Source: an uncultured Clostridia bacterium
GTDB lineage: Bacteria; Bacillota; Clostridia; Christensenellales; Borkfalkiaceae
Assembly (NCBI GenBank): GCA_947626575.1
Contig: CANQSR010000001.1
Coordinates: forward strand, 124,001-188,000
Reading direction: 5' to 3'
DNA: 64,000 nucleotides
Part shown: in pieces, positions 7,361-62,831 of the stretch
How positions within the stretch are numbered: position 1 is the stretch's first letter
How the letters are laid out: each line of letters starts with the position of its first letter
The notes under the pieces: model-generated
Seen by the model: the letters and a program-made list of their open reading frames with translations, nothing else
The model's database searches: none
Told to the model about the DNA's origin: nothing
Program-made: the position numbers and the translations under genes

Positions 7361-8881
7361 TCAATCGCGCATTATCGTTTTACCGCCGTCCTCGCTGTGT
7401 CCTACATAGGACCCGCTTGCGCTGTAAAAGTTTCTTCCGTCTTGGCTGTACACCGTCATCGAGGTACCCATGTCCGTGGTAAAGGTGTATTCTTTCGTTT
7501 CTATCGGTTTTCCCAAGATCCCTCTCACGAACGGATTGCCCAAGTCGCTTTCGATGTGCAAAAGCCACAGGATGAGGCCAAGGATAAAACAGATGAAGAG
7601 CAAAACCAACGCGATCACAAGGACAACGACAACCGCGGCGATGACGAGAGCGATGACAAAGGGCAACAGCAGAGTGGGGCCGAGGACGATGCCGACGGTT
7701 GCCATTGGCTTCGTATTTTCTCTGAGGAAATACGGGAAGATGAAGAACGTCGCGATTTGCGTGCAGATGAACGATGCAAGCAAAAGATAGACGAGGTAGC
7801 CGAGCGCCGGATTGTCCATCCAGCCTTCCAGATACATTTTCGCGCATTCAATGGAGGTGCAAATTACCATGAAGTCGCTCTGTGCGAAAGAGAGGGCGCC
7901 GAGCATCACAAGCAAAGCGGCATAGCCCTTGGGAAGTTTCAAGGGGTTGTGTATGCCGAGATAGACGAGGTATACGGGCATGAGCGAAAAGATGAGTTGG
8001 GGCAATATGTCTCCTGCGAACGAATACCGAATACTAACATGCCACAAGACCTCCGGAGTGAGGAAGCGCCAAAGGAAACTCCATGGCGTGAGGAAGAAGG
8101 AGGGAAGCCCGCCAAGAGATATCGGTAGTCTCGGCTCCATGAATTCCGGGTCGAGTTTGAAGACGTAGAGCCCTTCTTTGAAGATGTAGGTGAAATTGAG
8201 ACGGAAGTAAGTCGCTAAATACGCAATGAACGCCGCCGCAAACAGGCCCGTGAGGATAAGAAAGGCGGGAATTTTGGAGGCATGCTCATCGCACATGCGC
8301 GTGCGGATTTTTTTCATGCCCGCGCCGAGTTTTCGGCACGTTTTGTGCATTCTTTTGAAAATGCCGTCCTGTTTTTTTACGACGGGCTTGCCCCCGGACA
8401 GCGCGGCGCCCGCCGCATGCACCTGTTCGCTTTCCGAGGAAGCAGGGGCTTTTTGCGCTTCGGCGCGCTTGCTTGCGCCGTCTGCGGGCGTCTCGGCGGC
8501 AACGGCAGGGCGTTTTCTCGGAATGGCGGTCAGCATGAGGATGCCCCCGATCAGGGATAGGGACGTAATACCGAAACAGAACAGCGCCAAAAAACTCACA
8601 ACAGGTATGCCGAAAATCTCCTTGCGCCCGCCCTTTTTTCCATAGACGGCGAGGATGATGAGGGAGAGGGCGATCCCCGCCAACATGAGACCGAAGATCA
8701 AATTTCCTCTATTATCCCAAAGGACACCCCTAATCAAATCATAAGCCCAAAGTGGCCTATCCCACTCCACATGAAAGAGGCCCCAAAGCAGTATAAAGGC
8801 CGCAAGTGCTAAAATTCCCGTGGCGGCAATTATGCACAGCACAAAACCCGCCATCAACTGTTTCTTTCTGATCATACTCAC
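7361..8881 (-). CDS. Multi-pass membrane protein of unknown function, XRE-linked
   Basis: 506 residues. Three N-terminal hydrophobic helices are followed by a soluble segment rich in Ala, Glu and Lys (about residues 130-195), then about five more helices, including a long Val/Ile/Leu-only stretch near residues 400-440, and a polar tail with Gly-Ser-Tyr repeats. No family recognised. A GGAG ribosome-binding site precedes the ATG. It is transcribed divergently from a small XRE regulator and its consensus promoter overlaps a 25 bp palindrome, so repression by that regulator is likely. Confidence 0.8.
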   Translation of the reverse strand: MSMIRKKQLMAGFVLCIIAATGILALAAFILLWGLFHVEWDRPLWAYDLIRGVLWDNRGNLIFGLMLAGIALSLIILAVYGKKGGRKEIFGIPVVSFLALFCFGITSLSLIGGILMLTAIPRKRPAVAAETPADGASKRAEAQKAPASSESEQVHAAGAALSGGKPVVKKQDGIFKRMHKTCRKLGAGMKKIRTRMCDEHASKIPAFLILTGLFAAAFIAYLATYFRLNFTYIFKEGLYVFKLDPEFMEPRLPISLGGLPSFFLTPWSFLWRFLTPEVLWHVSIRYSFAGDILPQLIFSLMPVYLVYLGIHNPLKLPKGYAALLVMLGALSFAQSDFMVICTSIECAKMYLEGWMDNPALGYLVYLLLASFICTQIATFFIFPYFLRENTKPMATVGIVLGPTLLLPFVIALVIAAVVVVLVIALVLLFICFILGLILWLLHIESDLGNPFVRGILGKPIETKEYTFTTDMGTSMTVYSQDGRNFYSASGSYVGHSEDGGKTIMRD

Positions 8882-8924
8882 TCCTTTGCATAAGTTTCTC
8901 TATGTATCCCAAAACGGGATATTT

Positions 8925-8955
8925 TTATTATACCGATTCGGTATAATAATGTCAA
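8925..8955 (-). promoter_or_regulatory. Promoter plus palindromic operator between the 7361 gene and the XRE gene
   Basis: A perfect 12 bp-arm inverted repeat, TTATTATACCGA (8925-8936) and TCGGTATAATAA (8938-8949), centred on 8937. On the minus strand TTGACA (8950-8955), 17 bases and TATAAT (8927-8932) form a consensus promoter for the membrane protein. On the plus strand the other arm supplies TATAAT (8942-8947) for the XRE gene. A dimeric repressor bound here would cover both -10 boxes. Confidence 0.85.
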
Positions 8956-8965
8956 GAGAATTTCC

Positions 8966-9258: not shown

Positions 9259-9672
9259 ATGTTCGCAACGGTGAAAGGCTCCGCGATGGGCGCAACGGAC
9301 GAACGGATGAGGTATCTCGGCCTTTGGGATGCCTACGGCCCCCTTCTTACCGACCTCCAACGGGAGATCTGCGAGCGGTATTTTCTCTGCGATCTTTCGC
9401 TTTCGGAGATCGCCGAAGAGAAGGGCGTCTCCAAGCAAGCCGTCTCGGATACCCTCAAAAAGAGCAGGGAACTGCTCGACCTCTATGAGGAAAAGTTGCA
9501 CGTCAAGAAGAATAACGACGAATATTCCCTCGCGGTCTCTTTTATGATGACGCGCGTCACGCGGGCGCTCGAAGAGTTCGCCCGCCTGCACCCCGAATTT
9601 TCCGAAGAGATGGCCTCGATCGCGGACATGGTATGCGTCGGCGAGGTCATAGATACCGGAAAGGAGGATTGA
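9259..9672 (+). CDS. ylxM: YlxM-family SRP-associated helix-turn-helix protein
   Basis: 137 residues from the ATG at 9259, which has GGGAGGG four bases upstream and follows the promoter at 9193; an upstream in-frame extension is ignored. The sigma-70 region 4-like HTH covers about residues 20-75 (LTDLQREICERYF, then SLSEIAEEKGVSKQAVSDTLK), the hallmark of the YlxM/p13 family that is encoded next to ffh and can modulate SRP GTPase activity in Gram-positive bacteria. The C-terminus is an Ala/Glu helix. It ends directly at the ffh ATG. It carries one CGGACATGGTA word (9623-9633). Confidence 0.9.
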   Translation: MFATVKGSAMGATDERMRYLGLWDAYGPLLTDLQREICERYFLCDLSLSEIAEEKGVSKQAVSDTLKKSRELLDLYEEKLHVKKNNDEYSLAVSFMMTRVTRALEEFARLHPEFSEEMASIADMVCVGEVIDTGKED

Positions 9673-10986
9673 ATGGCACTCTTTGATTCGCTCTCGGAGC
9701 GTCTCAACCACATCTTCTCCAAACTGACGAAGCGCGGGAAACTCACCGAGCTTGAAATAAGAACGGCCATGCGCGAGGTGCGCGTCGCCCTTTTGGAAGC
9801 GGACGTCAACCTGAAAGTCGTAAAAAACTTCATCGCCGAAGTCTCCGAAAAGGCCGTCGGCCAACAGGTATTGGGGAGCTTGAACCCCGCCCAGCAGGTC
9901 ATCAAGATCGTCAACGACGAACTCATCGCGCTGATGGGGTCCGGAAACGCCAAGCTCGAAGTTTCGCCCAAGCCGCCCACGGTCATCATGATGTGCGGCC
10001 TTCAAGGCGCGGGCAAGACGACGATGTGCGCCAAGCTCGCCGTGCAACTCAAAAAGCAGGGGAAGAAGCCCTTGCTCGTCGCGGGCGATATTTATAGGCC
10101 TGCCGCCATCGACCAGCTCAAAGTCGTGGGGGGCAAGGCGGGCGCCGAAGTGTTCGAACGGGGGACGCAGGACCCCGTCAAGACGGCGCGCGAAGCCGTC
10201 GAATATGCCAAAAAGATGGGGTTCGATACCGTCGTCATTGACACGGCGGGCCGCCTTCACATCGACGAAAAGCTCATGGAAGAGCTTGAAAACATCGCGA
10301 AGGCCGTGGAAGTCACCGAAATTTTGCTCACGGTGGACGCCATGACGGGGCAGGATGCGGTCAACGTCGCCGAGACCTTCAACGCGCGGCTCAACGTGAC
10401 GGGCGTCATCCTCACCAAGCTGGACGGCGATACGCGCGGCGGCGCGTGCCTCTCCATCAAGGCGGTGACGGGCAAGCCCATCAAGTTCATCGGCGTGGGC
10501 GAAAAGCTCACCGACCTCGAACCCTTCTATCCCGACCGTATGGCGAGCCGCATTTTGGGCATGGGTGACGTCTTGTCGCTCATTGAGCGCGCGCAGGAGG
10601 CCGTCACCGAACAGCAGGCGAAGGAGATGGAGCGCAAGATGCGCGAAAATTCCTTCACGCTCAGCGACTATCTGACGCAGTTCGAGACGCTCAAAAAGAT
10701 GGGCGGGGCGGGCGCGCTCATGAGTATGCTCCCCGGCGCGGGCAAGTTGAAGATCAAGGAGGGGGATATCGACGAGAAGCGCATCGAGCGCGTCCGTGCC
10801 ATCATCCTCTCCATGACCCCCAAGGAACGCGATAACCCGCAGATCATCAACTATTCGCGCAAGAAGCGCATTGCGCTCGGTTCGGGTACGACGTTGCAGG
10901 AAGTCAACCAGCTCTTGAAGCAGTTCGAGCAGACCAAACTTCTGATGAAACAGATGAAGGGCGGCAAGCGCAGATTGCCGTTCTGA
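9673..10986 (+). CDS. ffh: Signal recognition particle protein Ffh (SRP54)
   Basis: 437 residues. Binds signal sequences and 4.5S/6S RNA and delivers ribosomes to FtsY. The N domain is followed by a G domain with GLQGAGKTTMCAKLA, DIYRPAAIDQL, DTAGRLHI and TKLDGDTRGGA, then a Met-rich M domain (about residues 300-437) with TPKERDNP and a basic KQMKGGKRR tail. The ATG follows the ylxM TGA with no gap; the upstream AAAGGAGG lies within ylxM. Confidence 0.98.
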   Translation: MALFDSLSERLNHIFSKLTKRGKLTELEIRTAMREVRVALLEADVNLKVVKNFIAEVSEKAVGQQVLGSLNPAQQVIKIVNDELIALMGSGNAKLEVSPKPPTVIMMCGLQGAGKTTMCAKLAVQLKKQGKKPLLVAGDIYRPAAIDQLKVVGGKAGAEVFERGTQDPVKTAREAVEYAKKMGFDTVVIDTAGRLHIDEKLMEELENIAKAVEVTEILLTVDAMTGQDAVNVAETFNARLNVTGVILTKLDGDTRGGACLSIKAVTGKPIKFIGVGEKLTDLEPFYPDRMASRILGMGDVLSLIERAQEAVTEQQAKEMERKMRENSFTLSDYLTQFETLKKMGGAGALMSMLPGAGKLKIKEGDIDEKRIERVRAIILSMTPKERDNPQIINYSRKKRIALGSGTTLQEVNQLLKQFEQTKLLMKQMKGGKRRLPF

Positions 10987-11285
10987 GGGCTTCTCCCTCG
11001 GACATGGTACCCTCGGATGAGGTCAATGTCCACAGAAAAGTGAGGCTCTACCCTCTCCTTGGGGAGAGGGACTGAGGGAGTGGGGGTACATCCGTCACCC
11101 TGAGCTTGCAGAAGGGTCACCTTATTATAATAAGGAGATTCCTCACTTCGTTCGGAATGACGTTTAAGAGTTTCGGAAGTGACGTATAAAGGCTTCGGTC
11201 GGACGGAATGACGTAAAAACCCTTTCGGCCCTTCGGGCCACTTTCCCTAAAAGGGACAGCAAGAATTGTTCGTAAATATAAATTT
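10987..11285. repeat. Intergenic repeat block between ffh and rpsP
   Basis: No gene. It holds one CGGACATGGTA word (10999-11009), a CTCTCCTTGGGGAGAG module (11050-11090), an inverted copy of the CCCTGAGCTTG...AAGGGTCACC module (11095-11130), a GATTCCTCACTTCGTTCGG module (11138-11165), and an inverted copy of the AAAGGG...GGGACAGC module (11218-11268). Confidence 0.8.
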
Positions 11286-12396: not shown

Positions 12397-12898
12397 TGGC
12401 CCCATTCCGCGGGTATCATATGGTGAACGGATTTACTCCACCCCCGCCTCCCCCCTTTAACCGAAGGGGGGAGGCGGGGCTTGCTGTCCCCGAAGGGGTT
12501 TGGGCGTTCACGTCATTTCGAGGAGCGCAGCGACGAGAAATCTTTAAGAACGAGATTCCTCCTCCCGTTAGTCGTCGGAATGACAGCGGACTTCGCCTGC
12601 GGCTCGTGACGCGTATTTACTCCCCACTCCCTGAATCCCCCTCCCCAAGGAGGGGGTAACATATGACGGGAATACATATGTATCTTCGGACATGGGTACC
12701 CCGTTTTGCGTCCGTATGCGGAAAAACACATATGCAGACATATGTCCCCGCGGGCAAATGTTTTCGGCGCGGTGGGGGAGCGGAAAGGCCGTAAAACAAA
12801 AAAGCCCGTAAATCAAGCCCGTAAAAGCGAAGAAGCCCGAAGATGAAATGTTCCGAAAAACCAAAATCCCGAAACGCGAAAAATGAAAGTCCATAAAG
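12397..12898. other. Gene-free interval between khpA and pgi
   Basis: Contains a CCTCCCCCC...GGGGGGAGG hairpin module (12446-12474), a partial GCTGTCCC...AAGGGG module (12480-12500), a GTCATTTCGAGGAGCG module (12510-12600), one CGGACATGGGTA word (12687-12698) set among three ACATATG words, and about 150 bases of purine-rich DNA with repeated AAAAGCCCG-like words. No open frame with coding character. Confidence 0.7.
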
Positions 12899-14593: not shown

Positions 14594-16153
14594 TCAGATC
14601 GCCTTTGCGGCCCTTTTCCGTTTACGGCGTGCCTCCCCATAGGGCGCTTTCTTTTTGCGCTTGGGGAACTTGATGAATTTTTCAAGGAAAGCCTTGAAGT
14701 CGAAGAGGTGCAGAAGGTGCAAAAGGAGCGCCTCCGCGGCCAGGATGAAGAGGATGCAGAGGGCAAGCGCGATGAGGTAGTCACAATAGATCATGACGAC
14801 GGATCGGATACCCATGCCCGCGATCGTGGCCGCGATAACCACCAACATCAGGCTGAAAAAGTATTTCCCGGAGCGGAGTTTCCCCGTCTTTTTGGCGAGG
14901 AGCGCGAGGGAGCAGACGGCCGAGACGGTGTAATCCGCGGCCTGCCCCACGAGCAGGGCCCCGCCGGAAAGATAGCGGGGGAGGACCCACACGCAGAGGA
15001 GCATGGAGGCGGCGCCGAGGAGGAAGAAGAGCAGGGTCTGCCGCTCGCATCCGATGGAATTGAGCAGGCTCGTCGAGATCATCGTCACGCTCATGGGGAT
15101 GAGGATGAGCGCGCTCTTTTCGATGAGGATGCCGCTCTCGGCGTTGGAATAGAGGAGAACGCCCACCCCTTCGCCGCAGACGGCGAGGAAGGGGATGAGC
15201 GCGCCCGCGATGAGCAGCGTTGCATTGAGCGCCTTTTTGACGAGTTCGGCGAGTTTTTCGCGGTCGCCCTTATAGTAGCACTCCGAAAGTTCGGGAACGA
15301 GGACGAGCGCAATGGAGCCGATGAGCGAGCAGGGGATGGTGAGAATGGGCATGACCATGCCGCCGACGACGCCGTATGCGCTCATGGCGCGCGCCGACGA
15401 CATGCCCGCCGCCATCAGCCGCATGGGGAAGATGACCGAGATGAGGGAACTTACGAGCGAGGAGGAAGTCCGCATGGCCGTGACGGGGAGCGAGGACTTC
15501 AAAAGCGGCTTGATCTCCCCGCGCGGCGGGGCGAGCCTTCCGCCCTTTTTCATGAAATAGAAGACCGCGATGGAGAAGGAGGAGAGATAGGAGATGAGAA
15601 CGGCCGCGGCCGCCTTGTTGACGTCGGCGATGCCCGCGTCCACGAAAAAGAAGAGCAAAACGCCGCACACGACCATCACGATCTCTTCGATGAGTTCGAT
15701 GAGGGAGTAAGCGAAGAACCGCTTATTGCCCCAGAAATTGCCGCGGATGACGGCGTAAACGGAGGTGAACGTGAGGCCGAAAATGAGGATGTAAAAGAGG
15801 TCGCCGCAACGGGGATCGGAGAAAATCTTGGTAAATGGGGTGCGGAAAATAAAGAGCAGAAGCGTGATCGCCGTCCCGCAGACTGCCGTGATGAGGATGG
15901 CGGCCGTCGTGGCGCGGTGTTCGCCTTCGGGGTAGCCGTGCGCGCGGTGCGCCGTGATGGCGCGGGAGAGCGTGATGGGCAGCCCTGAGGAGACAACGGT
16001 CAGAAAGACGGCAAACACCGAGAGGGAGACCTGATAGATGCCGAGGCCTTCGGGGCCCAACGTGCGGGAGAGGATGATGCGGTAGAGAAAGCCGAGCCCG
16101 TGTTCGAAGGCGGCAAATATCGTGACGATCGCGGCAGTCTTGTATAAGTTCAT
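14594..16153 (-). CDS. SpoVB-like polysaccharide/lipid flippase (MOP superfamily)
   Basis: 519 residues with about 14 hydrophobic helices and a basic C-terminal tail (KRKKKAPYGEARRKRKRAAK). The N-terminus (FLYRIILSRTLGPEGLGIYQ) is characteristic of the SpoVB/YtgP branch of oligosaccharidyl-lipid flippases. SpoVB is needed for spore cortex synthesis in Bacillus, but family members also serve vegetative envelope roles, so the exact substrate is uncertain. Next to a LysM gene and a conserved clostridial gene, which fits an envelope or spore neighbourhood. Confidence 0.88.
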   Translation of the reverse strand: MNLYKTAAIVTIFAAFEHGLGFLYRIILSRTLGPEGLGIYQVSLSVFAVFLTVVSSGLPITLSRAITAHRAHGYPEGEHRATTAAILITAVCGTAITLLLFIFRTPFTKIFSDPRCGDLFYILIFGLTFTSVYAVIRGNFWGNKRFFAYSLIELIEEIVMVVCGVLLFFFVDAGIADVNKAAAAVLISYLSSFSIAVFYFMKKGGRLAPPRGEIKPLLKSSLPVTAMRTSSSLVSSLISVIFPMRLMAAGMSSARAMSAYGVVGGMVMPILTIPCSLIGSIALVLVPELSECYYKGDREKLAELVKKALNATLLIAGALIPFLAVCGEGVGVLLYSNAESGILIEKSALILIPMSVTMISTSLLNSIGCERQTLLFFLLGAASMLLCVWVLPRYLSGGALLVGQAADYTVSAVCSLALLAKKTGKLRSGKYFFSLMLVVIAATIAGMGIRSVVMIYCDYLIALALCILFILAAEALLLHLLHLFDFKAFLEKFIKFPKRKKKAPYGEARRKRKRAAKAI

Positions 16154-18479: not shown

Positions 18480-20141
18480 TTATGACGGTTTTTCGCACCC
18501 CGTCTGTACATTTTGCGGAAAACCCGCCAGCGTCGTGAACGCGGAGTACGTCACAAACCCCGCCTTCGCGCCCTTGGGTTTTTTGACGAATTTGACGCGG
18601 CAACAGTCCACGGGGACGCGGTCGCCCCGCGAATCGGAATACTTCGCGCAGACGTCCGCGGCAAATTGCAAGACCTCTTCGGGAACGCTTTTCCCCTCCG
18701 TCTTGACGATGACGTGGCAGGAGTGGTAACGCTGTGCGTGCAGCCAGAGGTCGTCGGGGGAGGCGGTGCGGACGAGGCGGTCGTTTTGCAGGTTGTTGCG
18801 GCCGGCAAAGATGTGAAATCCGCCCGCGGTAAAGGTGCGGAAGGGGATCTCCGCCCGCTTTTTCGTGCGCTTTTGCGGCTCTTTGGCAAGGCCCGCGCCG
18901 ATGAGTTCCTCTTCGAGGGCGAGAAGGTCCTCCTCGCTCTCCGCGGAAGAGAGGGCGGCGGCAAGGCCGGAAAGATAGTCGAGTTCGGCGCGCGTCTCCG
19001 CCTCCTGCGGGCCGAGGATTTCCAGCGTGCGCTTCTGCTTGCGGTAGCGTTTGAAGTAACTCTGCGCGTTCTCGGACGGGGTGAGGCGGGCGTCCAACGA
19101 AATTCTGATGCGCGTGCCGTCGTACCAATTATCCAGCTCCGCGCCCTTCATGCCGCGCGAGAGCGCATAGAGATTGGCGGTGAGGACCTCCCCCTTGATG
19201 CGCAGTTGTTCGCAGTCCGCGCATTCTTTCTTCTTTTCGAGGATCTGCGCAAGCCGCTTTTCATGCTTTTTGGCCGCCGCAGATACGGCGGAGGCACATC
19301 TTTTCCGCATGCCTTCGAATTTTTTCGCCCTGCGCTTTTCCGCATAGAAATAGCTCTGCGCCTCCGAAAGGGTGGCAAACGGGCGGGCGCCTTCCACGGC
19401 GCGTGCGGAGAAATCCACGGGGATCCCGTCCCGCATGACCGCGCAGGGGCATACCATGTCCGAGAACAGGTACTCATAAACGTAGTCGGCGAGGTCGCCG
19501 CCGCGATAGTTTGCGGCGATCTGCTCGGCCGTGACGGGCGCAAGGCCCGCGATGCGCGTAAAGAGGAAGCGGCCGAGGTCGGCGGGCGGAGTTTGGAGAA
19601 GGTCGGCGAGCGCGGCACGGTCGGAAGGGTCTATCTTGCCCTCCTGCGGGGCGGGGAGCAGGTACTTCACGCCCGCGAAGATCATGCGCTTGCTGTTTGT
19701 ATCGAGGGAGGTCGTTTTGAGCGCGCCCAAAATGACGTCCTGCCCGTCGCACAGGATGAGGTTGGAGTACTTGCCCATGACTTCGAGGTACAGGCGGCGT
19801 TCGTCCGTCGCAAACTCCGTACTGCCGCGCATGGAGAAGCACAGGATGCGCTCGAAGCCGACGAGGCGCACGGATAAGATCTCCGCACCCTGAATGTGTT
19901 TGCGGAGCAACATGCAGAAATTGGGCGCGACGAGCGGCGCCTCGGCTTCGCTGTCATCGAAATAGGCGCCGCAGTCGGAGGCGTTGGTATCGAGCGCCAG
20001 CCTGCGGGTGCGCCTGCCCGTGTAGACGATGAGGTCTGCTTCGTCCTTATTCGGCTGGACGATCTTGTTGATGCGCGCGCCCCGCAGTGCGTCGTCGAGT
20101 TCGCGTGCGATATGGCGTAATGTAAAGGCGTCTTGCGGCAT
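18480..20141 (-). CDS. rqcH: Ribosome quality control protein RqcH (NFACT family)
   Basis: 553 residues. Binds stalled 50S-peptidyl-tRNA complexes and directs C-terminal alanine tailing; earlier annotated as fibronectin-binding protein. NFACT-N domain at the N-terminus (GARINKIVQPNKDEADLIVY), a middle helical/coiled-coil region about residues 260-430, and the NFACT-R domain with GRNNLQNDRLVR, DDLWLHAQ and a GAKAGFVTYS end. Starts at ATG 20141; an identified minus-strand promoter lies upstream. Contains one CGGACATGGTA word (19452-19462). Confidence 0.95.
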   Translation of the reverse strand: MPQDAFTLRHIARELDDALRGARINKIVQPNKDEADLIVYTGRRTRRLALDTNASDCGAYFDDSEAEAPLVAPNFCMLLRKHIQGAEILSVRLVGFERILCFSMRGSTEFATDERRLYLEVMGKYSNLILCDGQDVILGALKTTSLDTNSKRMIFAGVKYLLPAPQEGKIDPSDRAALADLLQTPPADLGRFLFTRIAGLAPVTAEQIAANYRGGDLADYVYEYLFSDMVCPCAVMRDGIPVDFSARAVEGARPFATLSEAQSYFYAEKRRAKKFEGMRKRCASAVSAAAKKHEKRLAQILEKKKECADCEQLRIKGEVLTANLYALSRGMKGAELDNWYDGTRIRISLDARLTPSENAQSYFKRYRKQKRTLEILGPQEAETRAELDYLSGLAAALSSAESEEDLLALEEELIGAGLAKEPQKRTKKRAEIPFRTFTAGGFHIFAGRNNLQNDRLVRTASPDDLWLHAQRYHSCHVIVKTEGKSVPEEVLQFAADVCAKYSDSRGDRVPVDCCRVKFVKKPKGAKAGFVTYSAFTTLAGFPQNVQTGCEKPS

Positions 20142-44681: not shown

Positions 44682-45350
44682 ATGAAACTTTCGGAATGCG
44701 CCGTCTCGGCGCTCTTTGACTTGCACCGCACGGCGGCGGGGGAGTATCTCGCGGGGTTCGAGTACCCGTGGGAGGCGCTCGCAGGGCTGAAAAATTTTTT
44801 GGAAAATTACGATTTCGGCGACGGCTTCGCGGACATGGGTGGGGGGATTTTCGTCCACCGCACGGCAAGGGTCGCGCCGACGGCCGTCCTTTTCGGCCCC
44901 TGCGTCATCGGGGAGGGGAGCGAGATACGCGCGGGCGCGTTCGTGCGCGGGAGCGTTCTCGTAGGCAAAAATTGCGTCGTGGGCAATTCCGCCGAGCTGA
45001 AAAATTGCATCCTGTTCGACGGCGTGCAGACGCCGCATTATAATTACGTCGGTGATAGCATTTTGGGCCGTTCGGCCCACCTCGGCGCGGGGGCGGTGAC
45101 CTCCAATCTGCGCGCGGACCGCGGGCGCGTTTTTATCAGGGCGGACGACGGAAATATAGACACGGGGTCGAGAAAATGCGGGGCATTTTTGGGTGACGGC
45201 GCGGAAGTGGGGTGCAACGCCGTGCTTTGTCCGGGGACGGTCATCGGCCGCAACACGGCGGTCTATCCGCTCACCCTCTGCCGCGGCTGTTATCCCGCCA
45301 ACAGCATCGTGAAGCACACTTCCGTTGTTGTCCCCCGCAACGAGCGTTAA
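44682..45350 (+). CDS. Left-handed beta-helix protein, sugar nucleotidyltransferase-like
   Basis: 222 residues from the ATG at 44682. Hexapeptide repeats fill the middle (VHRTARVAPTAVLFGPCVIG, then IRAGAFVRGSVLVGKNCVVG and VGCNAVLCPGTVIGRNTAVY). There is no N-terminal nucleotidyltransferase domain, so it is like the C-terminal half of GlmU. Many such proteins are acyl or sugar-1-phosphate transferases; substrate unknown. A TAAAAT five bases before the ATG and no Shine-Dalgarno suggest another leaderless mRNA, though the -35 is weak. Confidence 0.8.
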   Translation: MKLSECAVSALFDLHRTAAGEYLAGFEYPWEALAGLKNFLENYDFGDGFADMGGGIFVHRTARVAPTAVLFGPCVIGEGSEIRAGAFVRGSVLVGKNCVVGNSAELKNCILFDGVQTPHYNYVGDSILGRSAHLGAGAVTSNLRADRGRVFIRADDGNIDTGSRKCGAFLGDGAEVGCNAVLCPGTVIGRNTAVYPLTLCRGCYPANSIVKHTSVVVPRNER

Positions 45351-46219: not shown

Positions 46220-47854
46220 TCAGGCGTTTTCTTTCTTCCAAATCACAATTTCGCCCGTTTCATCGTCATAGTGCCACCAATTTTCGCTCTCCTGCCACTT
46301 CGCCTCATCGGGTTCTCCCCCGGAGAAATAATACCGCGTGGCGTTGGTCAGTTTGTTATTGAGGTCGCCAATCAGAATATTGTTCCATGTTTCGGCCGTT
46401 CCCTTATAGTAGACATTTTTCAGTTCGAAACAACGCACGAACGCAAAATTTCCAATCGAGGTAACGCCGCTCCCGATCGTCACGCTTTCAAGCCTGCCAC
46501 ATTCATAGAACGCCCACTCTCCGATTGAGGTCACGCTATCGAGAATTGTAATACTTGTCAGCCCGCTACAACCCCAGAATGCACCGCTTCCGATCGAGGT
46601 GACGCCGTTTCTGATCGTCACACTTTCAAGCTCGCTACAATCATAGAACATCAATTCATAAATTTCGTAATCACTTCCATTTGGATTTTTTTCAGGAAGA
46701 ACCAACTGCGTTTCATCTCCGTTATATCCTAAGAGATAGCAGTCTTTTCCCTCTTCATAAAAGATAAATCCTTCACTTGTGACTGTTTGAAAACCTTTTT
46801 CCTGTCCTGTATAAACATGCTTTGCAAATTCTGCCACACCACCGTATTCATGTGTCCCCGGCTCTAACGGTAGTTTGGAATAATTCCAGACTTCAATAAG
46901 TTTAGGGCAAGACGAAAAAGCCCCGCCTTTGATTGAGGTCACGCCGCTTCCGATCGTTACGCTTGTCAGCCCGCTACAACCATAGAATGCATGTCCCCCA
47001 ATTGAGGTCACGTCGCTTCCGATCGTGACGCTTGTTAGCCCCCTGCAATTATAGAAAGCAGCGGGTTTGATTTCTTTGATGTCGGCGGGGATTTCAAGTT
47101 TTTTGATTTCTACATCGTTTAAATAGAGATGATGCGCATAAGCGAGCGGGTTGGAGCAAGGGTCGTTTGCAAAATCAATCTTACACCACGCCGAAAGATC
47201 GGTAATATTTACTCTCGTCAGCCTGCCACATTCATAGAATGCCCGCTCTCCGATCGAGGTCACGCCGCTTCCGATCGTTACACTCGTCAGTCCGCTACAA
47301 CCATAGAACGCCTCATCTCCGATTGAGGTCACGCTGTCGGGAATTTCAATACTCGTCAGCCCGGTACTACCATAGAACGCAGAATTACCAATTGAGGTCA
47401 CGCTCTTGCTTTGGTAGCCATATGGGATGACGAGCGCAAGCGTTTCAACAGTATCTAAGGCTGTGCCGATACCCGTCACGGTATAGGTATCCGTTTCCGC
47501 ATCCAATTGGTATTCAAGCCCCTCCGTAAATTCCCATTTTTCACCGCAACCGGAACATACATTTTCCACGGTATATGTATGGACGTGCGCGGGGGGATCG
47601 CCGCCTTCCTCTCCTTGACTGCCGCCTGGGCTTTCTTGACTGCCCTGGCTTCCGCCTTGACTGCCGCCTGGGCCCTCCTGACTGCCCTGGCTTCCGCCTT
47701 GACTGCCGCCTGGGCCTTCTTGACCGCCTTGGCTTCCGCCTTGTTCGATTTCTTGCCCGCCGGTTCCGCCATTTCCGCCGCAGGCCGCGAGGGCGAGGCA
47801 CAGGCATAGGGCGGCCAGCATCGCAAGGAGCATGACCGAAATCTTCTTTTTCAT
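46220..47854 (-). CDS. Lipoprotein with BspA-type leucine-rich repeats
   Basis: 544 residues. Lipoprotein signal with the Cys in ALAACGG (about residue 25). Then a low-complexity linker with three repeats of EGPGGSQGGSQGSQ type (about residues 33-80), then Cys-containing HTYTVENVCSGCGEKWEF. The rest is LRR_5/BspA repeats (TSIGDEAFYGCSGLTSVTIGSGV, about ten copies) interrupted by a loop near residues 300-370. Likely a surface adhesin. Start set by AAAGGAGG before 47854; a longer frame reading upstream is rejected. Perfect promoter with an operator in the spacer, facing a divergent XRE gene. Confidence 0.92.
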   Translation of the reverse strand: MKKKISVMLLAMLAALCLCLALAACGGNGGTGGQEIEQGGSQGGQEGPGGSQGGSQGSQEGPGGSQGGSQGSQESPGGSQGEEGGDPPAHVHTYTVENVCSGCGEKWEFTEGLEYQLDAETDTYTVTGIGTALDTVETLALVIPYGYQSKSVTSIGNSAFYGSTGLTSIEIPDSVTSIGDEAFYGCSGLTSVTIGSGVTSIGERAFYECGRLTRVNITDLSAWCKIDFANDPCSNPLAYAHHLYLNDVEIKKLEIPADIKEIKPAAFYNCRGLTSVTIGSDVTSIGGHAFYGCSGLTSVTIGSGVTSIKGGAFSSCPKLIEVWNYSKLPLEPGTHEYGGVAEFAKHVYTGQEKGFQTVTSEGFIFYEEGKDCYLLGYNGDETQLVLPEKNPNGSDYEIYELMFYDCSELESVTIRNGVTSIGSGAFWGCSGLTSITILDSVTSIGEWAFYECGRLESVTIGSGVTSIGNFAFVRCFELKNVYYKGTAETWNNILIGDLNNKLTNATRYYFSGGEPDEAKWQESENWWHYDDETGEIVIWKKENA

Positions 47855-47881
47855 AAAAACCTCCTTTGTGTTTATAATGAT

Positions 47882-48139: not shown

Positions 48140-48367
48140 GCGGACGGCTGAGGCCGTCCGCTTGCGTTTTATAGGGGTTCCTTTCGGACATGGTAGGGGG
48201 AAAGATGTTTTGCCTCATGGCTGACAGAAGCGGTGCATTTTCATAGCACCCCTCATCCGTCACCTTCGGTGACAGCTTCCCCCCAAGGGGAGAAGCCTTG
48301 GCCAAAGCGCCCGTCACTCGCGTTGCTCGCGCCACCCACCCCTCAAGTGGTGGGTACATAAAAACAC
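48140..48367. repeat. Short repeat block between XRE genes
   Basis: GCGGACGGCTGAGGCCGTCCGC hairpin (48140-48161), one CGGACATGGTA word (48185-48195), a CATCCGTCACCTTCGGTGAC module with CCCCCCAAGGGG (48249-48300), and a CCACCCCTCAAGTGGTGGG module (48335-48358). Confidence 0.75.
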
Positions 48368-48787: not shown

Positions 48788-49888
48788 TCAGACGTTGAAG
48801 CGGAAGAGGACGACGTCGCCGTCCTTCATCACATAGTCCTTGCCCTCCGAGCGCACCTTGCCCTTCTCGCGCGCGCCCGTAAGCCCGCCGCATTCGAGGA
48901 GTGTCTCGTAGTCCACGACCTCCGCGCGGATGAAGCCCTTTTCAAAGTCGGTGTGGATCTTGCCCGCGGCCTGCGGCGCCTTGGTCCCCTTCACGATGGT
49001 CCACGCGCGCGTCTCTTTCTCCCCCGCGGTGAGGTAGGAGATGAGGCCGAGGAGCGAATACGAAGCCTTGATCAGCTTATCGAGACCGCTCTCTTTGAGA
49101 CCGAATTCTTCCAAAAACAGCGCCTTGTCCTCCTCCGAGAGTTCGGCGAGTTCGGCCTCTGTCTTGGCGCAGACGACGATGGTCTCCGCGCCGTGGCCCG
49201 CGGCATAATCTTTTACCGCTTGTACAAGGGGCAAAGCCTCTTCGGGGGTACCCATGTCCGCCTCGGAGATGTTTGCGCAGTAGATAACGGGCTTTGCGGA
49301 GAGCAGAAAAAGATTATCGAGAAGCGCCTTTTCTTCCTCATTTACGGCAAGTGACGAGGCGGGTTTTTCCTCTTCGAGATGATGATAGAGCTTTTCGAGG
49401 AAGGCAAACTCTGCGGCGGCGGCCTTGTCCGCCCCGCCGCGCGCCGCGTTACGGATGCGGTCCTGCCGCTTCTCCACGGCTTCGAGGTCGGCAAGGATGA
49501 GTTCCAAATTGATGGTCGTGATGTCGCGCACGGGGTCCACCGTGTTTTCGACGTGCGTCACGTTGGCGTCCTCGAAACAGCGGACGACGTGGACGATGGC
49601 ATCCACCTCGCGGATGTGGGAGAGAAACTTGTTGCCGAGGCCCTCGCCGCGGCTCGCGCCCTTAACGAGGCCCGCGATATCCACAAATTCCACGACGGCG
49701 GGTGTCACTTTCTTGCTCGCATAGAGGGCGGCGAGCTTGGTGAGCCGCTCATCGGGGACGGCCACGATGCCCACGTTGGGTTCAATGGTGCAGAACGGGT
49801 AATTTGCCGCCTCGGCGCCCGCATGGGTGATGGCGTTGAACAGCGTGGATTTGCCGACGTTGGGAAGGCCCACGACTCCTAATTTCAT
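48788..49888 (-). CDS. ychF: Redox-regulated ATPase/GTPase YchF (OLA1 family)
   Basis: 366 residues. P-loop [15 protein letters not shown] at the N-terminus, [20 protein letters not shown] (G3 region), coiled coil [13 protein letters not shown], and a C-terminal TGS domain (DVVLFRFNV end). Binds ribosomes and responds to oxidative stress in other bacteria. Start at 49888 chosen by the GGAG site and the family N-terminus. One CGGACATGGGTA word (49249-49260). Confidence 0.97.
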
Positions 49889-50041: not shown

Positions 50042-51733
50042 ATGGAATACAGATCTTACATCGCGGCGCGCCTGCCCTCCATGGGTATGACGGAGGAAGA
50101 ACTCGCCTCCGCCATCGCCGTTCCGCCCGATACTTCCCTCGGCGATTACGCCCTGCCCTGCTTCAAATTCGCCAAAATTTTGAGAAAGCCTCCCGTCAAG
50201 ATCGCGGAGGAACTCGCGGCGGCGTATCCCACCGACGACGTCATCCCCGAAGTCAGCGCAGTCAACGGCTATCTCAACTTCCGCGTCGGAAAGAAGGGCC
50301 TCGCCGAAGAGACGTTGGAGGCCATCTCAAAACTGCGCGGCGACTATGGGACCTCGGACATGGGTAGGGGCAAAACCGTCTGCATCGACTATTCTTCGGT
50401 GAATATCGCCAAGCCCTTCCATATCGGCCACCTCTCCACGACGGTACTCGGCGGCAGCCTTTACCGCATCTTCAAGGCGCTCGGCTACCGCGTCGTCGGC
50501 ATCAACCACCTCGGCGATTACGGCACGCAGTTCGGGAAACTCATCTCCGCGTATAAGCATTGGGGCGACCGCGAAGCGGTGGAAAGGGGCGGCATCCACG
50601 CCATCAACGACCTCTATGTGCGCTTCAACAACGAGGCCACGGAGGAGATGGAAGCCGAGGCGCGCGAATATTTCCGCCTCATCGAGAGCGGCGATCTGGA
50701 GGCGAACGAACTGTTTGAGTGGTTCAAGTCGCTCACGATGGCCTATGTGCAGAAGATATACGACCGCCTGCACATCACGTTCGATAGCTATGCGGGCGAA
50801 CGCTTCTACATCGATAAAATGCAACCTGTCATCGATGAACTCCGCCAAAAGGGGCTTCTCACCGAGAGCCAGGGGGCGCAGGTAGTGGACCTTGCACCGT
50901 ACGGCATGCCGCCCTTCATCGTTCTCCGTTCGGACGGCGCGTCCCTCTATGCCACGCGCGATCTCGCCGCCGCGTTCTACCGCAAAAAGACTTACGATTT
51001 TGACAAGTGTCTGTACGTCGTGGCCTACCAGCAAAATCTGCACTTCCAACAGCTCTTCAAGGTCATCGAACTCATGGGCGAACCGTGGGCGAAGGACCTC
51101 GTGCATGTCGCGTACGGCATGGTCAGCCTTGAAGACGGGGCCATGTCCACGCGGAAGGGCAAGGTGGTCTGGTTGGAGGACGTTCTGAGCCGTTGCGTGG
51201 AGAAGGCGGCCGCCGTTCTCGAAGAGAAGAACCCGCATTTGGAAGGCAAGGCGGAAGTCGCCGAGAAGGTGGGCGTCGGGGCCGTCGTATTCGGCGCGCT
51301 CTATAACAATAAGATCAAGGATATCGTCTTTTCCTATGACAAGGCGCTCAACTTCGACGGCGAGACGAGCGTGTATGTGCAATACACATGCGCCCGTGCG
51401 CGCTCCGTGCTTGCGAAGGCCGAAGAGAGCGGGATCGCATACGAGAAGGCCGCGGTCTGCGACCTCTGCCCCGCAGAATTCGAACTCGTGAAGGCGCTCG
51501 CCGAGTTCCCCGAAACCGTCAAAACGGCCGCCGCGACCTATGAATCTTCCGCCGTCGCGCGGTATGCCGTCTCCACGGCGCAGAAGTTCAATAAATTCTA
51601 TATTGATTGCAAAGTCATGCAGGCCAATTCGGACATGGTACGGGCATTTCGCCTCAGATTGACCGACGCGGCGCTCGTGACGCTCACCAACGCGCTCTCG
51701 CTTTTGGGGATCGGCGTACCCGATAAAATGTGA
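50042..51733 (+). CDS. argS: Arginyl-tRNA synthetase
   Basis: 563 residues from the ATG after CAAGGAGTTTACC. Class I synthetase: HIGH motif KPFHIGHLSTTVLG, KMSK-type signature MSTRKGKVVWLED, N-terminal Add-1 domain and C-terminal DALR-type domain with a KFNKFYIDCKVM region. Two motif words lie inside (50355-50366 and 51630-51640). The next gene starts at TGATG overlap. Confidence 0.97.
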   Translation: MEYRSYIAARLPSMGMTEEELASAIAVPPDTSLGDYALPCFKFAKILRKPPVKIAEELAAAYPTDDVIPEVSAVNGYLNFRVGKKGLAEETLEAISKLRGDYGTSDMGRGKTVCIDYSSVNIAKPFHIGHLSTTVLGGSLYRIFKALGYRVVGINHLGDYGTQFGKLISAYKHWGDREAVERGGIHAINDLYVRFNNEATEEMEAEAREYFRLIESGDLEANELFEWFKSLTMAYVQKIYDRLHITFDSYAGERFYIDKMQPVIDELRQKGLLTESQGAQVVDLAPYGMPPFIVLRSDGASLYATRDLAAAFYRKKTYDFDKCLYVVAYQQNLHFQQLFKVIELMGEPWAKDLVHVAYGMVSLEDGAMSTRKGKVVWLEDVLSRCVEKAAAVLEEKNPHLEGKAEVAEKVGVGAVVFGALYNNKIKDIVFSYDKALNFDGETSVYVQYTCARARSVLAKAEESGIAYEKAAVCDLCPAEFELVKALAEFPETVKTAAATYESSAVARYAVSTAQKFNKFYIDCKVMQANSDMVRAFRLRLTDAALVTLTNALSLLGIGVPDKM

Positions 51734-52371
51734 TGGGCGCGGTATTTTTCGATCTCGACGGCACATTGCTCGATACCGTACCCGATATCCGCGCCGCGCT
51801 CAATCTTGCCCTTGCGGAATGCGGCGGGGAGCCTGTGAGCTATGAGCAGACGGTGGCTTATGTGGGCAACGGGGCGAGAAAACTCGTGGAGCGCGCGGCG
51901 CCGCATGCGGACCACGGGCGGCTTTTGGAGCTGTTCGCAAAGTACTACAACGCCTCGGAGAACGAACTCACCCGCCCCTATGCGGGTATGCGGGAACTCT
52001 TGGAAAAGCTGCGGGCGCGGGGCGTGAAGCTGGCCGTCGTTACCAACAAATTGCAAATCTCCACCGAGCGGCTGATGGCGCGCTTCTACCCCGGAATTTT
52101 CGATTTCATCGGCGGAGACGACGGGTCCTTCCCGTGTAAACCCGACCCCTCGCTCACGCGCTATGCCGCGCTCTCCCTCCGCGTCCCCCTGCGGCAAAGC
52201 ATCTTTGTGGGAGACGGCGAAACCGACGTTGCAACAGCCCTCAATGCGGACATGGTACCCATCTCGGTGCTGTGGGGGTATCGCAGGCGTGAAGTTTTGG
52301 AGGCGGCGGGGGCGAAGCGTTTCGCGCGCAATCCCCAAGAACTTGGGGAGCTGTTGGAAAAGCTATTATAA
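51733..52371 (+). CDS. HAD-family phosphatase (phosphoglycolate phosphatase-like)
   Basis: 212 residues. HAD motif I FFDLDGTLLDTVPDI, cap domain to about residue 100, motif II VTNKLQIS, motif III KPDPSLTRYA and motif IV FVGDGETDVATA. Gph-like. ATG overlaps the argS stop (TGATG), so it is translated with argS. One motif word (52247-52257). Confidence 0.9.
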   Translation: MGAVFFDLDGTLLDTVPDIRAALNLALAECGGEPVSYEQTVAYVGNGARKLVERAAPHADHGRLLELFAKYYNASENELTRPYAGMRELLEKLRARGVKLAVVTNKLQISTERLMARFYPGIFDFIGGDDGSFPCKPDPSLTRYAALSLRVPLRQSIFVGDGETDVATALNADMVPISVLWGYRRREVLEAAGAKRFARNPQELGELLEKLL

Positions 52372-53520: not shown

Positions 53521-53522
53521 TG

Positions 53523-57491: not shown

Positions 57492-57539
57492 CCTCAGCGG
57501 CGCATAGTTTTGCGGCCACTGACATGAAACGGAGGCACC

Positions 57540-58610
57540 ATGTCCGAAAAGTACCCCTTTGATACGTCTATTCCGACCTCTTCGGAAGAACAACAAAAGC
57601 GCGCCCGCGCCCTTGCCATCGTCAATACGTTTGCGGGGGCAAGCGCGTTTGCGCTCGCCATTTTCGCTATTTTGGCGCTCGTCGGCATCGTCGTGATCCT
57701 CTTCGTCTATGAATTCGGGAAGATGGATCTTAGGCTCTTTGTCATCCTGCTCGGCTCCTTTGCGGGCGGAACGGTCGCCTTCGCGCTCGCGGCCTTCTTT
57801 CTCATGCGCCTTTCGGGGCGGATCGAGAAGCGTCGGCTGGATTTTCTCGAACGGTGCGATTCCCCTGAGAGCTTCTTTGTGGGCGAAGGGACGCTCGCGA
57901 CCTTCACCCCGTCGGGCATTCTTCTTCATGCGGAAAAGGGTCCCTCCGTCGAGGTGCCTTATCGCGATATCCGCTTCTTTTCCATCTGTTCGCGCAAGCG
58001 TGCGCGGGAGGAAGGGGAGTGGTCGGTCGTGATCGAAGTTCCCGCGTCCTACCTCGCAAAAGATAAGATGGGTGCGGGAAAATCGGCGGCGCTCATCCAA
58101 ACGGAGGCGAAACCGCGCCTTGCGGAAGCCATCGCCGCGCACGGCCTCACGCTGCTCGGCGAACAACGCCCCGAAGGCCCGTTGCCCAAGAAACGCTTCA
58201 CGGCCAAAAGGATGTTCTTCCTGCCCGACGCCAAACTCAAACGGCGCGCCGTCTTTCTCTGTGCGGGGGGCGCAGTCCTCGCCGTCGCGGGCATCGGCGT
58301 CGCCTTTTGGGAGATCTGGGCGGGCGTCATCCTCTGTTTCTTCGGGCTTTTGCTGTTGGCCCGCAGTATTTTCAGCCTCGTGCGTTCGCGGGGCGTCCTC
58401 GCGTTTTACGAAGAGGGCATCTATTGGACGGCGGCGGGCCGTACGGATAGCTTATTCCTCAAATGGGAGGAGATCGAAAGCCTTTCCCGCGGCGAGCGCG
58501 AGGGCTTAGGCCTCATCGCCGCCAAATGCGCATACGGGGAATACCATTTCCCCTGCCCGCGCGGCGCATGGGAATTTTTGCAGGAAACTTTTCCCGGAAA
58601 GCTCCGCTGA
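57540..58610 (+). CDS. Hypothetical membrane protein
   Basis: 356 residues. Two helices near residues 25-75 and two near 235-280, separated by a soluble beta-rich domain (FFVGEGTLATFTPSGILLHAEKG...VPYRDIRFFSI) that is repeated after the second helix pair (VLAFYEEGIYWTAAGRTDSLFLKWEEIESLS), a PH-like or DUF-type fold repeated twice. No clear name. A near-match to the motif word (CACCATGTCCG, 57537) overlaps the start. Confidence 0.75.
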   Translation: MSEKYPFDTSIPTSSEEQQKRARALAIVNTFAGASAFALAIFAILALVGIVVILFVYEFGKMDLRLFVILLGSFAGGTVAFALAAFFLMRLSGRIEKRRLDFLERCDSPESFFVGEGTLATFTPSGILLHAEKGPSVEVPYRDIRFFSICSRKRAREEGEWSVVIEVPASYLAKDKMGAGKSAALIQTEAKPRLAEAIAAHGLTLLGEQRPEGPLPKKRFTAKRMFFLPDAKLKRRAVFLCAGGAVLAVAGIGVAFWEIWAGVILCFFGLLLLARSIFSLVRSRGVLAFYEEGIYWTAAGRTDSLFLKWEEIESLSRGEREGLGLIAAKCAYGEYHFPCPRGAWEFLQETFPGKLR

Positions 58611-59129: not shown

Positions 59130-60172
59130 TGCAACAGGCCGATTATGAGAGCGTAGCCGTTTCCACCCGCATACGGCTCGCGCGCAACTTTCAGGATTAT
59201 CCCTTTCCGGGGCGGCTCATCAAGGATACCCATGCCCAAGAGCAGGCCAGCGAGATCATCCGTCTCATCGCGGCGGAACTCACGAGCATGGAGGATTTCG
59301 AACTCTTCGAGATGGCGGATATCCCCGATGAAACCGCTGCCTTCCTCACCGAGCGGTATCTCATTTCCCGCGATCTCATGCGGCACCGCGCCATCTCGGC
59401 GGCGCTCATCTCCCTCGATGAAAACATCTCCGTCATGATCAACGAGGAGGACCACGTCCGCGAGCAGTACTTCATGAAGGGCTTCGATCTGCCGCGCGCA
59501 TACGAGCGCATCTCCGGCATCGACGACATCATTTCCGATTCCATTCCCTTTGCATACGATAAAGAGTTGGGATATCTCACGGCCTGCCCTTCCAACCTCG
59601 GCACGGGGCTTCGCGCCTCCGTGATGCTCTTTTTGCCCGCCCTTGCGCGGCGCGGACTCATGAAAAAGCTCATCTCCACGCTCACCCGCCTCGGACTTGC
59701 GGTGCGCGGCGTGTTCGGCGAGGGGAGCGGCGCGGACGGCGACCTCTTTCAGGTCAGCAACGAAGTCACGCTCGGCCTCTCCGAGGAGGAAGTCCTCTTC
59801 GGCGTCGGGCAGGCGGTGAGCGTCATCGTGGAGGCGGAACTTTTGGAGCGCGAACGCATGATGGCCGAGGAGGGCATGGCCCTCAAAGACAGGCTACGCC
59901 GTTCGCTGGGCATCCTGCTCAGCTGTTCGCTCCTCGGCCAGCAAGAGCTTACCCGCCGCATCGCGGACTTGAAGCTCGGCGTGGCGCTCGGCTTCTTCGG
60001 GACGGAAGCGGGGGAGGATACCCGCCTTAGGACGCTCGACGCGCTCGCCGTGGATCTGCGCCCCGCCAGCATGGACCGCCTCGCAAAGCGCAAGCTCACC
60101 GAGGAAGAGGGGCTTGTTTTCCGCGCCAACTATGTGCGCAAGAACGTCGGCGCCATGCACCTGATCCTGTAA
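59129..60172 (+). CDS. mcsB: Protein arginine kinase McsB
   Basis: 347 residues. Phosphagen-kinase fold; phosphorylates arginines to mark proteins for ClpCP. N-terminal VAVSTRIRLARNFQDYPF, phosphate-binding SLDENISVMINEEDHVR, LTACPSNLGTGLRASVMLFLPAL and EVTLGLSEEE. Starts in the mcsA stop. A GC hairpin (60184-60206) separates it from clpC. Confidence 0.97.
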   Translation: MQQADYESVAVSTRIRLARNFQDYPFPGRLIKDTHAQEQASEIIRLIAAELTSMEDFELFEMADIPDETAAFLTERYLISRDLMRHRAISAALISLDENISVMINEEDHVREQYFMKGFDLPRAYERISGIDDIISDSIPFAYDKELGYLTACPSNLGTGLRASVMLFLPALARRGLMKKLISTLTRLGLAVRGVFGEGSGADGDLFQVSNEVTLGLSEEEVLFGVGQAVSVIVEAELLERERMMAEEGMALKDRLRRSLGILLSCSLLGQQELTRRIADLKLGVALGFFGTEAGEDTRLRTLDALAVDLRPASMDRLAKRKLTEEEGLVFRANYVRKNVGAMHLIL

Positions 60173-62705: not shown

Positions 62706-62730
62706 CCGCGCTAAAACGCGCGCATAGAGA

Positions 62731-62773
62731 AAGCCTCCCGCGGCGCACATTGTGCGCCGCGGGAGGCTTTTTG
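62731..62773 (+). terminator. Terminator of the mcsA-mcsB-clpC operon
   Basis: 19 bp perfect stem, 62731-62749 with 62751-62769 (AAGCCTCCCGCG...CGCGGGAGGCTT), one-base loop, T5. Confidence 0.93.
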
Positions 62774-62831
62774 AATGCTCTCTTTCGGACATGGTATGCC
62801 CGTTTTGTGTGAATAAGCCCTTGGACGGGCG

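Follow-up and report, generated by a model that had tools for sequence, protein, structure and literature searches.

A long, imperfect DNA signal abundant in some genomes of one Clostridia genus resembles an uptake sequence

Introduction

Uptake words are tied to two proteobacterial families in the available text of the studies that describe them (PMC3630211, PMC1939737, PMC7811141, PMC13020248). There, uptake sequences are named for Neisseria or Neisseriaceae and for Pasteurellaceae only (PMC13020248, PMC1852404), and the requirement for such a sequence is called unique to Neisseria and Pasteurellaceae (PMC3630211). According to the accessible portions of the sources, the DUS of Neisseriaceae is continuous, up to about 13 nt long (PMC12616744), and is read by the minor pilin ComP (PMC12061091), and the USS of Pasteurellaceae is built as a core plus tracts with a total length of up to 32 nt (PMC12616744). 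A screen of Veillonella parvula, as far as its accessible text goes, found no word of at least 10 bp with 100 copies (PMC5397411). An uptake word in Clostridia is unreported in the titles and abstract openings of the open-licence PMC literature on uptake in Firmicutes/Bacillota, and those on Borkfalkia competence and Coproplasma transformation likewise name no such word.

Here we describe an element of about 45 bp that recurs through the genome of an uncultured Clostridia bacterium (assembly GCA_947626575.1, hereafter G000; 1,896,687 bases in 35 contigs). The analysis started from the window, by which we mean the whole stretch of 64,000 nucleotides at positions 124,001 to 188,000 of contig CANQSR010000001.1, forward strand. 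Like the USS, which has dialects, the element combines a 9-nt non-palindromic core with less conserved, discontinuous A/T-rich stretches and occurs in many copies, on both strands, within and outside genes. Unlike the USS, it has another core, resides in another phylum (Bacillota, Clostridia), adds an upstream T-rich patch and a GTC at +23 to +25, is known here from sequence alone, and in most of the bearers examined is found where pilus machinery was not. With the DUS it shares the over-representation of a word, DUS dialects being lineage-specific in the part of the source available (PMC3630211), and differs in being about 45 bp long and discontinuous, in showing no excess of inverted neighbours, whereas close inverted pairs of the Neisseria DUS are in excess at terminators, and in the lack of a pilin signal in most bearers examined. 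From MITE and REP elements it is set apart by the finding of no gap of element size at aligned orthologous sites. HIP1 of cyanobacteria is also a highly iterated word spread through coding DNA, yet HIP1 is a short palindrome and the element is long and asymmetric. Chi and KOPS likewise are genomic words read by DNA-processing machines; they are short and polar along the replichore, whereas the information of the element spans about 45 bp and shows no polarity. In Haemophilus and Neisseria the density of uptake words is above that of this element.

Results

The initial annotation of the window reported nine copies of CGGACATGGTA and four of CGGACATGGGTA, well above chance. All 13 lie at the positions and on the strands it gave, against dinucleotide-shuffle means of 0.04 and 0.01, and the 9-mer common to both words, CGGACATGG, has 16 copies in the window where shuffles lead one to expect 0.64. 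The four near-matches it listed are real as well: those at 42536, 44830 and 57538 are CGGACATGG with a different tail, and on the minus strand at 17689 stands CGACATGGTAC. For a 464-kb sample, not the whole genome, 0.76 copies of CGGACATGGTA are predicted by an order-5 Markov model, and 42 are observed. The whole assembly holds 316 CGGACATGG, 151 forward and 165 reverse, and 13 copies of the reversed word (6 and 7). The observation is confirmed, and is larger than first stated.

The signal is longer than an 11-base word: CGGACATGG forms the core of a sequence that extends over about 45 bp and is imperfect and non-palindromic. In a profile built from 154 distinct aligned copies of G000 (minus contig C2) and of its close relative G101, information extends from about -18 to +25, counted from the C of the core, and the layout is a T-rich patch upstream, the core, CnC, an A/T tract and GTC. 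Position by position, the T-rich patch occupies -18 to -15, purines stand at -13 and -11, A at -12 and T at -7; two pyrimidines and then G or T border the core before, and T or G and then A or T after; downstream follow C/G at +13, C at +15, A/T at +17 to +19 and GTC at +23 to +25. Conservation is at the level of the DNA, not of the protein. Intergenic (40), sense (53) and antisense (61) copies yield similar profiles, and GTC occupies its fixed tail place in 19, 22 and 23 of them respectively, as compared with 1 of 200, 5 of 265 and 8 of 305 nearby controls of the same codon phase. When 7-mers with at least 14 coding copies were ranked blindly by flank information, the word not being supplied beforehand, GACATGG with its complement came first of 6473 in 133 kb of G000 coding DNA. 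In the rich genomes G103 (90 kb coding) and G060 (63 kb coding) the word was not at the top of the same ranking, and intragenic repeats or other words led. A matrix retrained on G000 and G101 (23.7 bits; threshold set at 8 sites per Mb in order-3 resamplings) admits variant cores: among 268 matrix sites, 135 have CGGACATGG, 31 CGGGCATGG, 10 TGGACATGG and 9 CAGACATGG.

Could codon usage, or a single protein motif (S-D-M-V/G), generate the word? The initial annotation had noted one frame for all sense copies, and such an explanation draws on the same fact. The frame preference stands, in that 35 of 44 sense copies of the 8-mer GGACATGG share a frame (464 kb of G000). Antisense copies number 38, nearly equal to sense, and 34 of them share one frame, other than the sense frame; a further 20 of the 102 copies are intergenic (464 kb, contig C2 included in both counts). 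The tail and flanks are alike in all three classes, and word-poor genomes spell the same residues by other codons. The protein-motif and codon explanation is refuted by this antisense, intergenic and codon-level evidence, and we regard it as next to impossible. The frame preference of GGACATGG, sense and antisense, would fit an avoidance of costly residues.

The sixteen elements of the window with an exact core are given here as 45-bp spans with their cores. On the plus strand, both word and matrix mark 9605..9649 (core 9623-9631), two sites in argS at 50337..50381 (core 50355-50363) and 51612..51656 (core 51630-51638), and four intergenic elements at 10981..11025 (core 10999-11007), 12669..12713 (core 12687-12695, tail ACCCCGTTTTGCGTC), 48167..48211 (core 48185-48193) and 62768..62812 (core 62786-62794, tail TGCCCGTTTTGTGTG). 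The top-scoring copy of the window, with a matrix score of 39.3, is also intergenic and on the plus strand, at 41318..41362 (core 41336-41344). Minus-strand elements marked by word and matrix lie at 19436..19480 (core 19454-19462), where the word is retained in the G060 orthologue, at 32261..32305 (core 32279-32287), antisense by the simple gene caller, and at 57520..57564 (core 57538-57546); a GGGTA form on the same strand, at 7450..7494 (core CGGACATGG at 7468-7476), has a matrix score of 26.5. Word, matrix and Pfam together place four more in genes: one for a class V aminotransferase (42518..42562, core 42536-42544, minus strand; retained in G101 and G103), a hexapeptide-repeat gene (44812..44856, core 44830-44838, plus strand; retained in G101), ychF (49234..49278, core 49252-49260, minus strand; ORF 48788-50029, minus strand) and a HAD hydrolase gene (52229..52273, core 52247-52255, plus strand), at whose site G101, G103 and G105 have one-base variants. 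The ychF word is retained in G101, G103 and G105, in an orthologue comparison that used the overlapping plus-strand ORF.

Variant-core elements of the window are marked by the matrix only. Those on the minus strand lie at 4535..4579 (score 28.5), 14794..14838 (26.7), 24948..24992 (25.2) and 43866..43910 (33.3), with two weak ones at 47812..47856 (16.0) and 59212..59256 (14.4, the threshold being 12.7); those on the plus strand lie at 10538..10582 (23.9), 33064..33108 (18.9) and 34219..34263 (18.5). The gene context of the 13 copies first reported is close to that described, except that five of them (10999, 12687, 41336, 48185 and 62786) and not four are intergenic by the simple gene caller. 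The caller is crude and is wrong for site 49252 at least, which it had called antisense and which is sense, because Pfam sets YchF on the minus strand.

Placement in the genome is random and unoriented. Over 384 kb of G000 the matrix marks 141 sites, of which 58 are sense, 58 antisense and 25 intergenic, and the same DNA is 77% coding and 23% intergenic, so that the sites are not biased to intergenic DNA. Neighbouring sites are oriented ++ in 33 cases, -- in 31, -+ in 31 and +- in 29, with no excess of inverted pairs (-+ or +-), and the nearest two of the 141 sites are 39 bp apart. Fifty-nine sites run with and 52 against the locally G-rich strand (p = 0.57), and the coefficient of variation of spacing, 0.89, is indistinguishable from the 0.97 (sd 0.08) of random placement. 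These counts therefore show no polarity, no inverted-neighbour excess and no intergenic preference. Polarity and even spacing, neither of which is seen among these sites, were rejected. The suggestion of the initial annotation that the word is a segregation signal is likewise not supported for a polar signal, since orientation does not track GC skew. A word linked to methylation, which that annotation also suggested, or to restriction, or a polar segregation signal of the KOPS/SRS kind, is very unlikely given this lack of polarity and the non-palindromic form of the word; we know of no methylation site as long as the element.

Abundance does not depend on the genomes used for training. The matrix finds 367 sites per Mb in G000 and 332 in G101, its two training genomes; in samples from four other genomes, not fetched around any known site, the figures are 338 per Mb in G103 (80 kb), 350 in G060 (80 kb), 300 in G105 (80 kb) and 465 in G119 (236 kb), versus 12, 17, 0 and 10 in resampled sequence. 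The word-poor genomes G102 and G113 (200 kb each) have 35 and 15 per Mb versus 7 and 5 resampled. Within the genus, 13 of 61 genomes have at least 10 copies of CGGACATGGNTA. We counted the extended pattern RGACATGGK-N13-GTC across 297 genomes belonging to the order, 10 of them in the genus, where the counts per genome are 138 (G000), 174, 129, 64, 60, 18, 14, 4, 0 and 0; the 287 outside the genus have 0-4 copies, against a chance estimate of about 1 and 0-10 for the reversed control. Among these 297, the extended pattern is abundant in some genomes of one genus only, and presence is lineage-specific.

This genus is probably Coproplasma-like, Coproplasma being assigned to Clostridia by NCBI. 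A scan for arginyl-tRNA synthetase returned 80 loci at 57-87% identity, whose more distant named relatives are Candidatus Coproplasma, Scatosoma and Borkfalkia. The seven nearest loci come from uncultured Clostridia MAGs labelled 'Lapin', which we take as rabbit gut.

Core preference has changed in one distant lineage. In 236 kb of G119, from sheep colon, CAGACATGG outnumbers CGGACATGG by 24 to 16, as compared with 9 to 86 over the 384 kb from G000 (p = 2e-9); the shift resembles a dialect, and the lower GC of G119 (0.50) may account for part of it. No second, distinct dialect appeared in the word-poor genomes searched, in 80-kb samples that are possibly too small, and the search returned intragenic repeats, codon bias and intergenic repeats. 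Bare counts of CGGACATGG overstate some lineages, and intermediate genomes are therefore uncertain: the genomes of L099, L105 and L089 have 37, 56 and 64 copies, yet 1 matrix site in 45 kb. Likewise, the 17-kb argS locus of G137 yielded 6 matrix sites, as against 4 in a separate 80 kb, the densities of short argS loci being inflated because the loci were fetched around a word-bearing gene. The reversed-word control reaches 18 per genome in one count set and 10 in another. A viral scan with a very strict pattern gave no match, which says little because even G000 has a single occurrence of that pattern in 384 kb.

The argS gene illustrates how the element varies among relatives. Site 50355 codes Ser-Asp-Met-Gly in the window genome, and 11 of the 44 relatives listed spell it TCG GAC ATG GGT, element-rich ones included (L073, L075, L076, L077, L078, L079, L083, L084, L087, L091 and L109); L092, L096 and L100 have identical residues spelled TCC GAC/GAT ATG GGC, and L074 has Ser-Thr-Leu-Gly. 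Site 51630 is common to L077 only among the same 44. An apparent argS frameshift in four relatives proved to be an artefact of the ORF being run upstream of the true start near 50045, and the frames are intact. In a single-protein tree of ArgRS the richest genomes (166-193 CGGACATGG per Mb) group together, and the word-poor L074/G102 (15 per Mb) is sister of the window genome plus L073 (support 0.80), this clade being nested in a group with L075 and L076 (support 0.84). The nesting of a word-poor genome among rich ones in this one tree suggests that the element was lost in the L074/G102 lineage.

At orthologous sites, the word is retained in 7 of 12 cases in G101, 6 of 11 in G103 and 4 of 8 in G105, where the behaviour of all 9-mers of equal phase in these alignments predicts 1.96, 1.57 and 0.97 (p = 0.001, 0.002 and 0.01). 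The word-poor G102 and G113 retain 0 of 13 and 0 of 17, zeros that are not below background because only 1.45 and 1.70 are expected. Aligned sites differ by substitution and not by insertion. Over the 18 nt inspected at each site, 3 of the 13 G102 comparisons contain a gap, of 3-6 nt; eleven other genomes show none, and nothing of 45 bp is seen. This bears on the possibility that the copies are remains of mobile elements or interspersed repeats (MITE, REP, BOX). The repeat families that do exist in G000, and a one-codon gap near argS site 51630 in many poor relatives, would be in keeping with such an origin, but an element-size gap is missing at orthologous sites, information is diffuse and its profile alike in sense, antisense and intergenic copies, and the intergenic share (25 of 141) is not above that of the DNA itself. 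We hold a repeat origin to be extremely unlikely.

Residues under cores match those of poor relatives in 30 of 75 and 36 of 99 cases, as compared with 7584 of 10895 and 10387 of 14632 (70% and 71%) in the rest of the genes, a comparison that is biased because the sites were picked by word presence in G000; against rich relatives, 50 of 60 and 35 of 48 match, which is normal. Both residues and retention bear on the main rival of the reading we favour, namely that the element is bound by a protein of nucleoid organisation, repair or replication, which bends some 45 bp of DNA, and that direct selection keeps each copy, with no exchange. Orthologue retention above background is what it would predict, a profile of A/T patch, core and A/T patch suits a wrapped or bent site, and no pilus was found in most of the rich genomes examined. 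Against it stand the random spacing and the lack of positional, strand or intergenic preference, the restriction of frequent CGGACATGGNTA to just those 13 of 61 genus genomes and of the extended pattern to 0-4 copies in the 287 others, and the residue differences from word-poor kin, which by that biased test would be costly if each site were under selection. Such a structural site is, in our estimate, somewhat unlikely.

We also looked for genes of DNA uptake. ComEC is present in 57 of 61 genus genomes, including 36 of 36 of good quality, and in G000 comEC adjoins the gene of DNA polymerase III delta; DprA has a match in all 20 picked genomes, 16 of them above the cut-off. Both are equally common in poor genomes and therefore give no account of the difference between rich and poor. 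The ComEA model gave no match above the cut-off; of its 17 best matches, 16 are HhH matches inside frames of 682-775 aa, which are probably Tex. We searched these 20 genomes, 14 of them with many word copies, for the pilus ATPase, the pilin signal and the prepilin peptidase. None of the three is over the cut-off in the host G000. All three occur in 2 of the 14 many-copy genomes (G104 and G060) and also in the poor genomes G102, G113, G114 and G108; the other 14 genomes (12 many-copy ones plus G110 and G125) have no pilus part above the cut-off, bar a 25-bit ATPase in G106, and most of them have weak ATPase matches only. Completeness figures among the pilus-scanned genomes exist for G000 (97%) and G060 only. 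Across the 61 genus genomes a type IV pilus (T4P) is found in 2 of 13 rich and 11 of 48 poor ones (p = 0.72), where rich means at least 10 CGGACATGGNTA per genome. A pilus was counted for twelve genomes whose matches exceed 420 bits and for G036, where the match is split in two; three matches that look Tad-like, at 336-356 bits, were excluded. The type IV pilus as engine of the spread of the word was rejected, as the two are uncorrelated. From the pilus scans it follows that the reader is not a standard competence pilus in most bearers examined.

Of the 20 genomes, 19 have AddA-like matches, which lie in open frames of 1090-1210 aa and are all under the family cut-off. They lend something to the idea that AddAB or a relative reads the word, as a Chi-like or otherwise recombination-tuning signal, while processing DNA ends; so does the frequency of the exact word, about once per 6 kb, which is within the frequency range of Chi. 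Known Chi sites, however, are 5-8 nt long and read as a short single strand, whereas information here spans about 45 bp without bias to GC skew, and AddA-like proteins are equally common in word-poor genomes. A Chi-like role is quite unlikely.

Discussion

How could a long word come to fill some genomes of a genus and not others? To our knowledge, hundreds of long, asymmetric, unoriented words within genes, kept or lost by lineage, are otherwise a property of uptake sequences only, and biased DNA exchange is therefore the reading we favour. Tentatively, and as a real possibility, we propose an uptake-sequence-like word that has accumulated through sequence-biased DNA exchange, that is, by molecular drive. 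A protein would recognise the core with its flanking A/T tracts as a double-stranded signal of about 45 bp, a step that may be part of DNA capture or import, and ComEC, DprA and presumably RecA would carry out the remaining steps. Element-bearing DNA would be preferentially exchanged between cells and then recombined into the chromosome, so that the bias of exchange, rather than selection on each site, would drive the spread. In most of the bearers examined, the reading machine would be something other than a standard type IV pilus.

The initial annotation had likened the word to those of DNA uptake, and its interpretation is borne out in part. Two outcomes that it named as refuting, a frequency no higher than a composition model predicts (here the Markov model of the 464-kb sample) and confinement to one protein motif, did not occur. 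A core joined to tracts, equal use of both strands, copies inside coding DNA, the core shift of one lineage and a gain and loss confined to clades agree with the likeness to uptake words; what weakens this reading is that the searches turned up no pilus genes in most of the element-rich genomes examined. Judged from its sequence features, the element may work like a DUS or USS, which we keep distinct from saying that it is one, and such a status is unproven given the result of the pilus searches. It is possible, if rather doubtful, that Bacillota have here a self-recognition word for uptake or exchange that became USS-like by independent evolution, with a reader that is not a type IV pilus, and that was gained, shifted and lost within one genus.

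If sequence-biased exchange is indeed at work, this would be a third independent case of an uptake word, in gut Clostridia without a pilus, and biased exchange would have evolved again with another machine; self-directed gene exchange would then mould uncultured gut bacteria. Alternatively, some other process would be able to fill genomes with long words. In either case, the rich, intermediate and word-free species of one genus are natural replicates for a search for the reader by gene content.

Materials and Methods

The data are MAG assemblies, with one quarter of G000 in full, a matrix from two genomes, one gene tree and small samples for several relatives. Some handles denote one genome (G034 is G103, G002 is G106, G030 is G107, G038 is G108, among others), and because of this the 61-genome and 40-genome sets overlap.

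G000 contains genuine interspersed repeat families. A 100-kb sample of its contig C2 lacks most of the repeat words that are common in the rest of the assembly, and the contig has 6 CGGACATGG in 195 kb, which suggests that C2 is mis-binned; because of this suspicion, these 100 kb were left out of the profile, matrix, placement and orthologue work. Against mis-binning, the tetranucleotide profile of C2 is near that of C1 (0.086), C4 also is without some repeat words, and the reported contamination of the host assembly is 0.59%. C2 is still element-bearing, with 14 sites or 140 per Mb versus 3 per Mb resampled, and with C2 included G000 has 155 matrix sites in 484 kb.

Repeat families of the host genome

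Words that are repeated in the window and on other contigs of its host genome include GGGACAGCAAG, GAAACCCTTTCGG, TCGGAATGAC, CGAGGCTTCTA, AGATTCCTCAC and GGAGGGTAGGG. These several words resemble families of REP-like or terminator-like repeats. The words of this set are rare in or missing from the samples of the related genomes G034, G060 and G102; TCGGAATGAC is frequent in the related genome G113 as well.

On C2, a 195-kb contig of the host assembly, CGGACATGG is scarce (5 copies in the 100 kb sampled, L014-L018), and most of the repeat words frequent on the other host contigs are missing from the same samples. C2 may be a contig from a different species, although the tetranucleotide profiles of C2 and of contig C1 are close.

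Repeats and pilus genes in related genomes

In 80 kb of G045 (L053-L056), GTTTGAGAG, CAAGGCTCTCA, CCAATAGGTAG and TAGTAAAAC are among the words with 13-14 copies each, as a CRISPR array or another array of repeats would give. Locus L091 of G119 holds a strong local repeat that contains GACGGGAGCT and CTACGACGGG, present in 10 and 14 copies, respectively, in 21 kb. We find that in G102, a word-poor genome, GGGGGACGTAT occurs 10 times in 222 kb (L074, L153-L162), 38 times the order-5 expectation, and is not included among the top coding words of that genome. Type IV pilus genes are patchily distributed among G104, G060, G102, G113, G114 and G108, with 12 pilin signals in G104 and 10 in G102.
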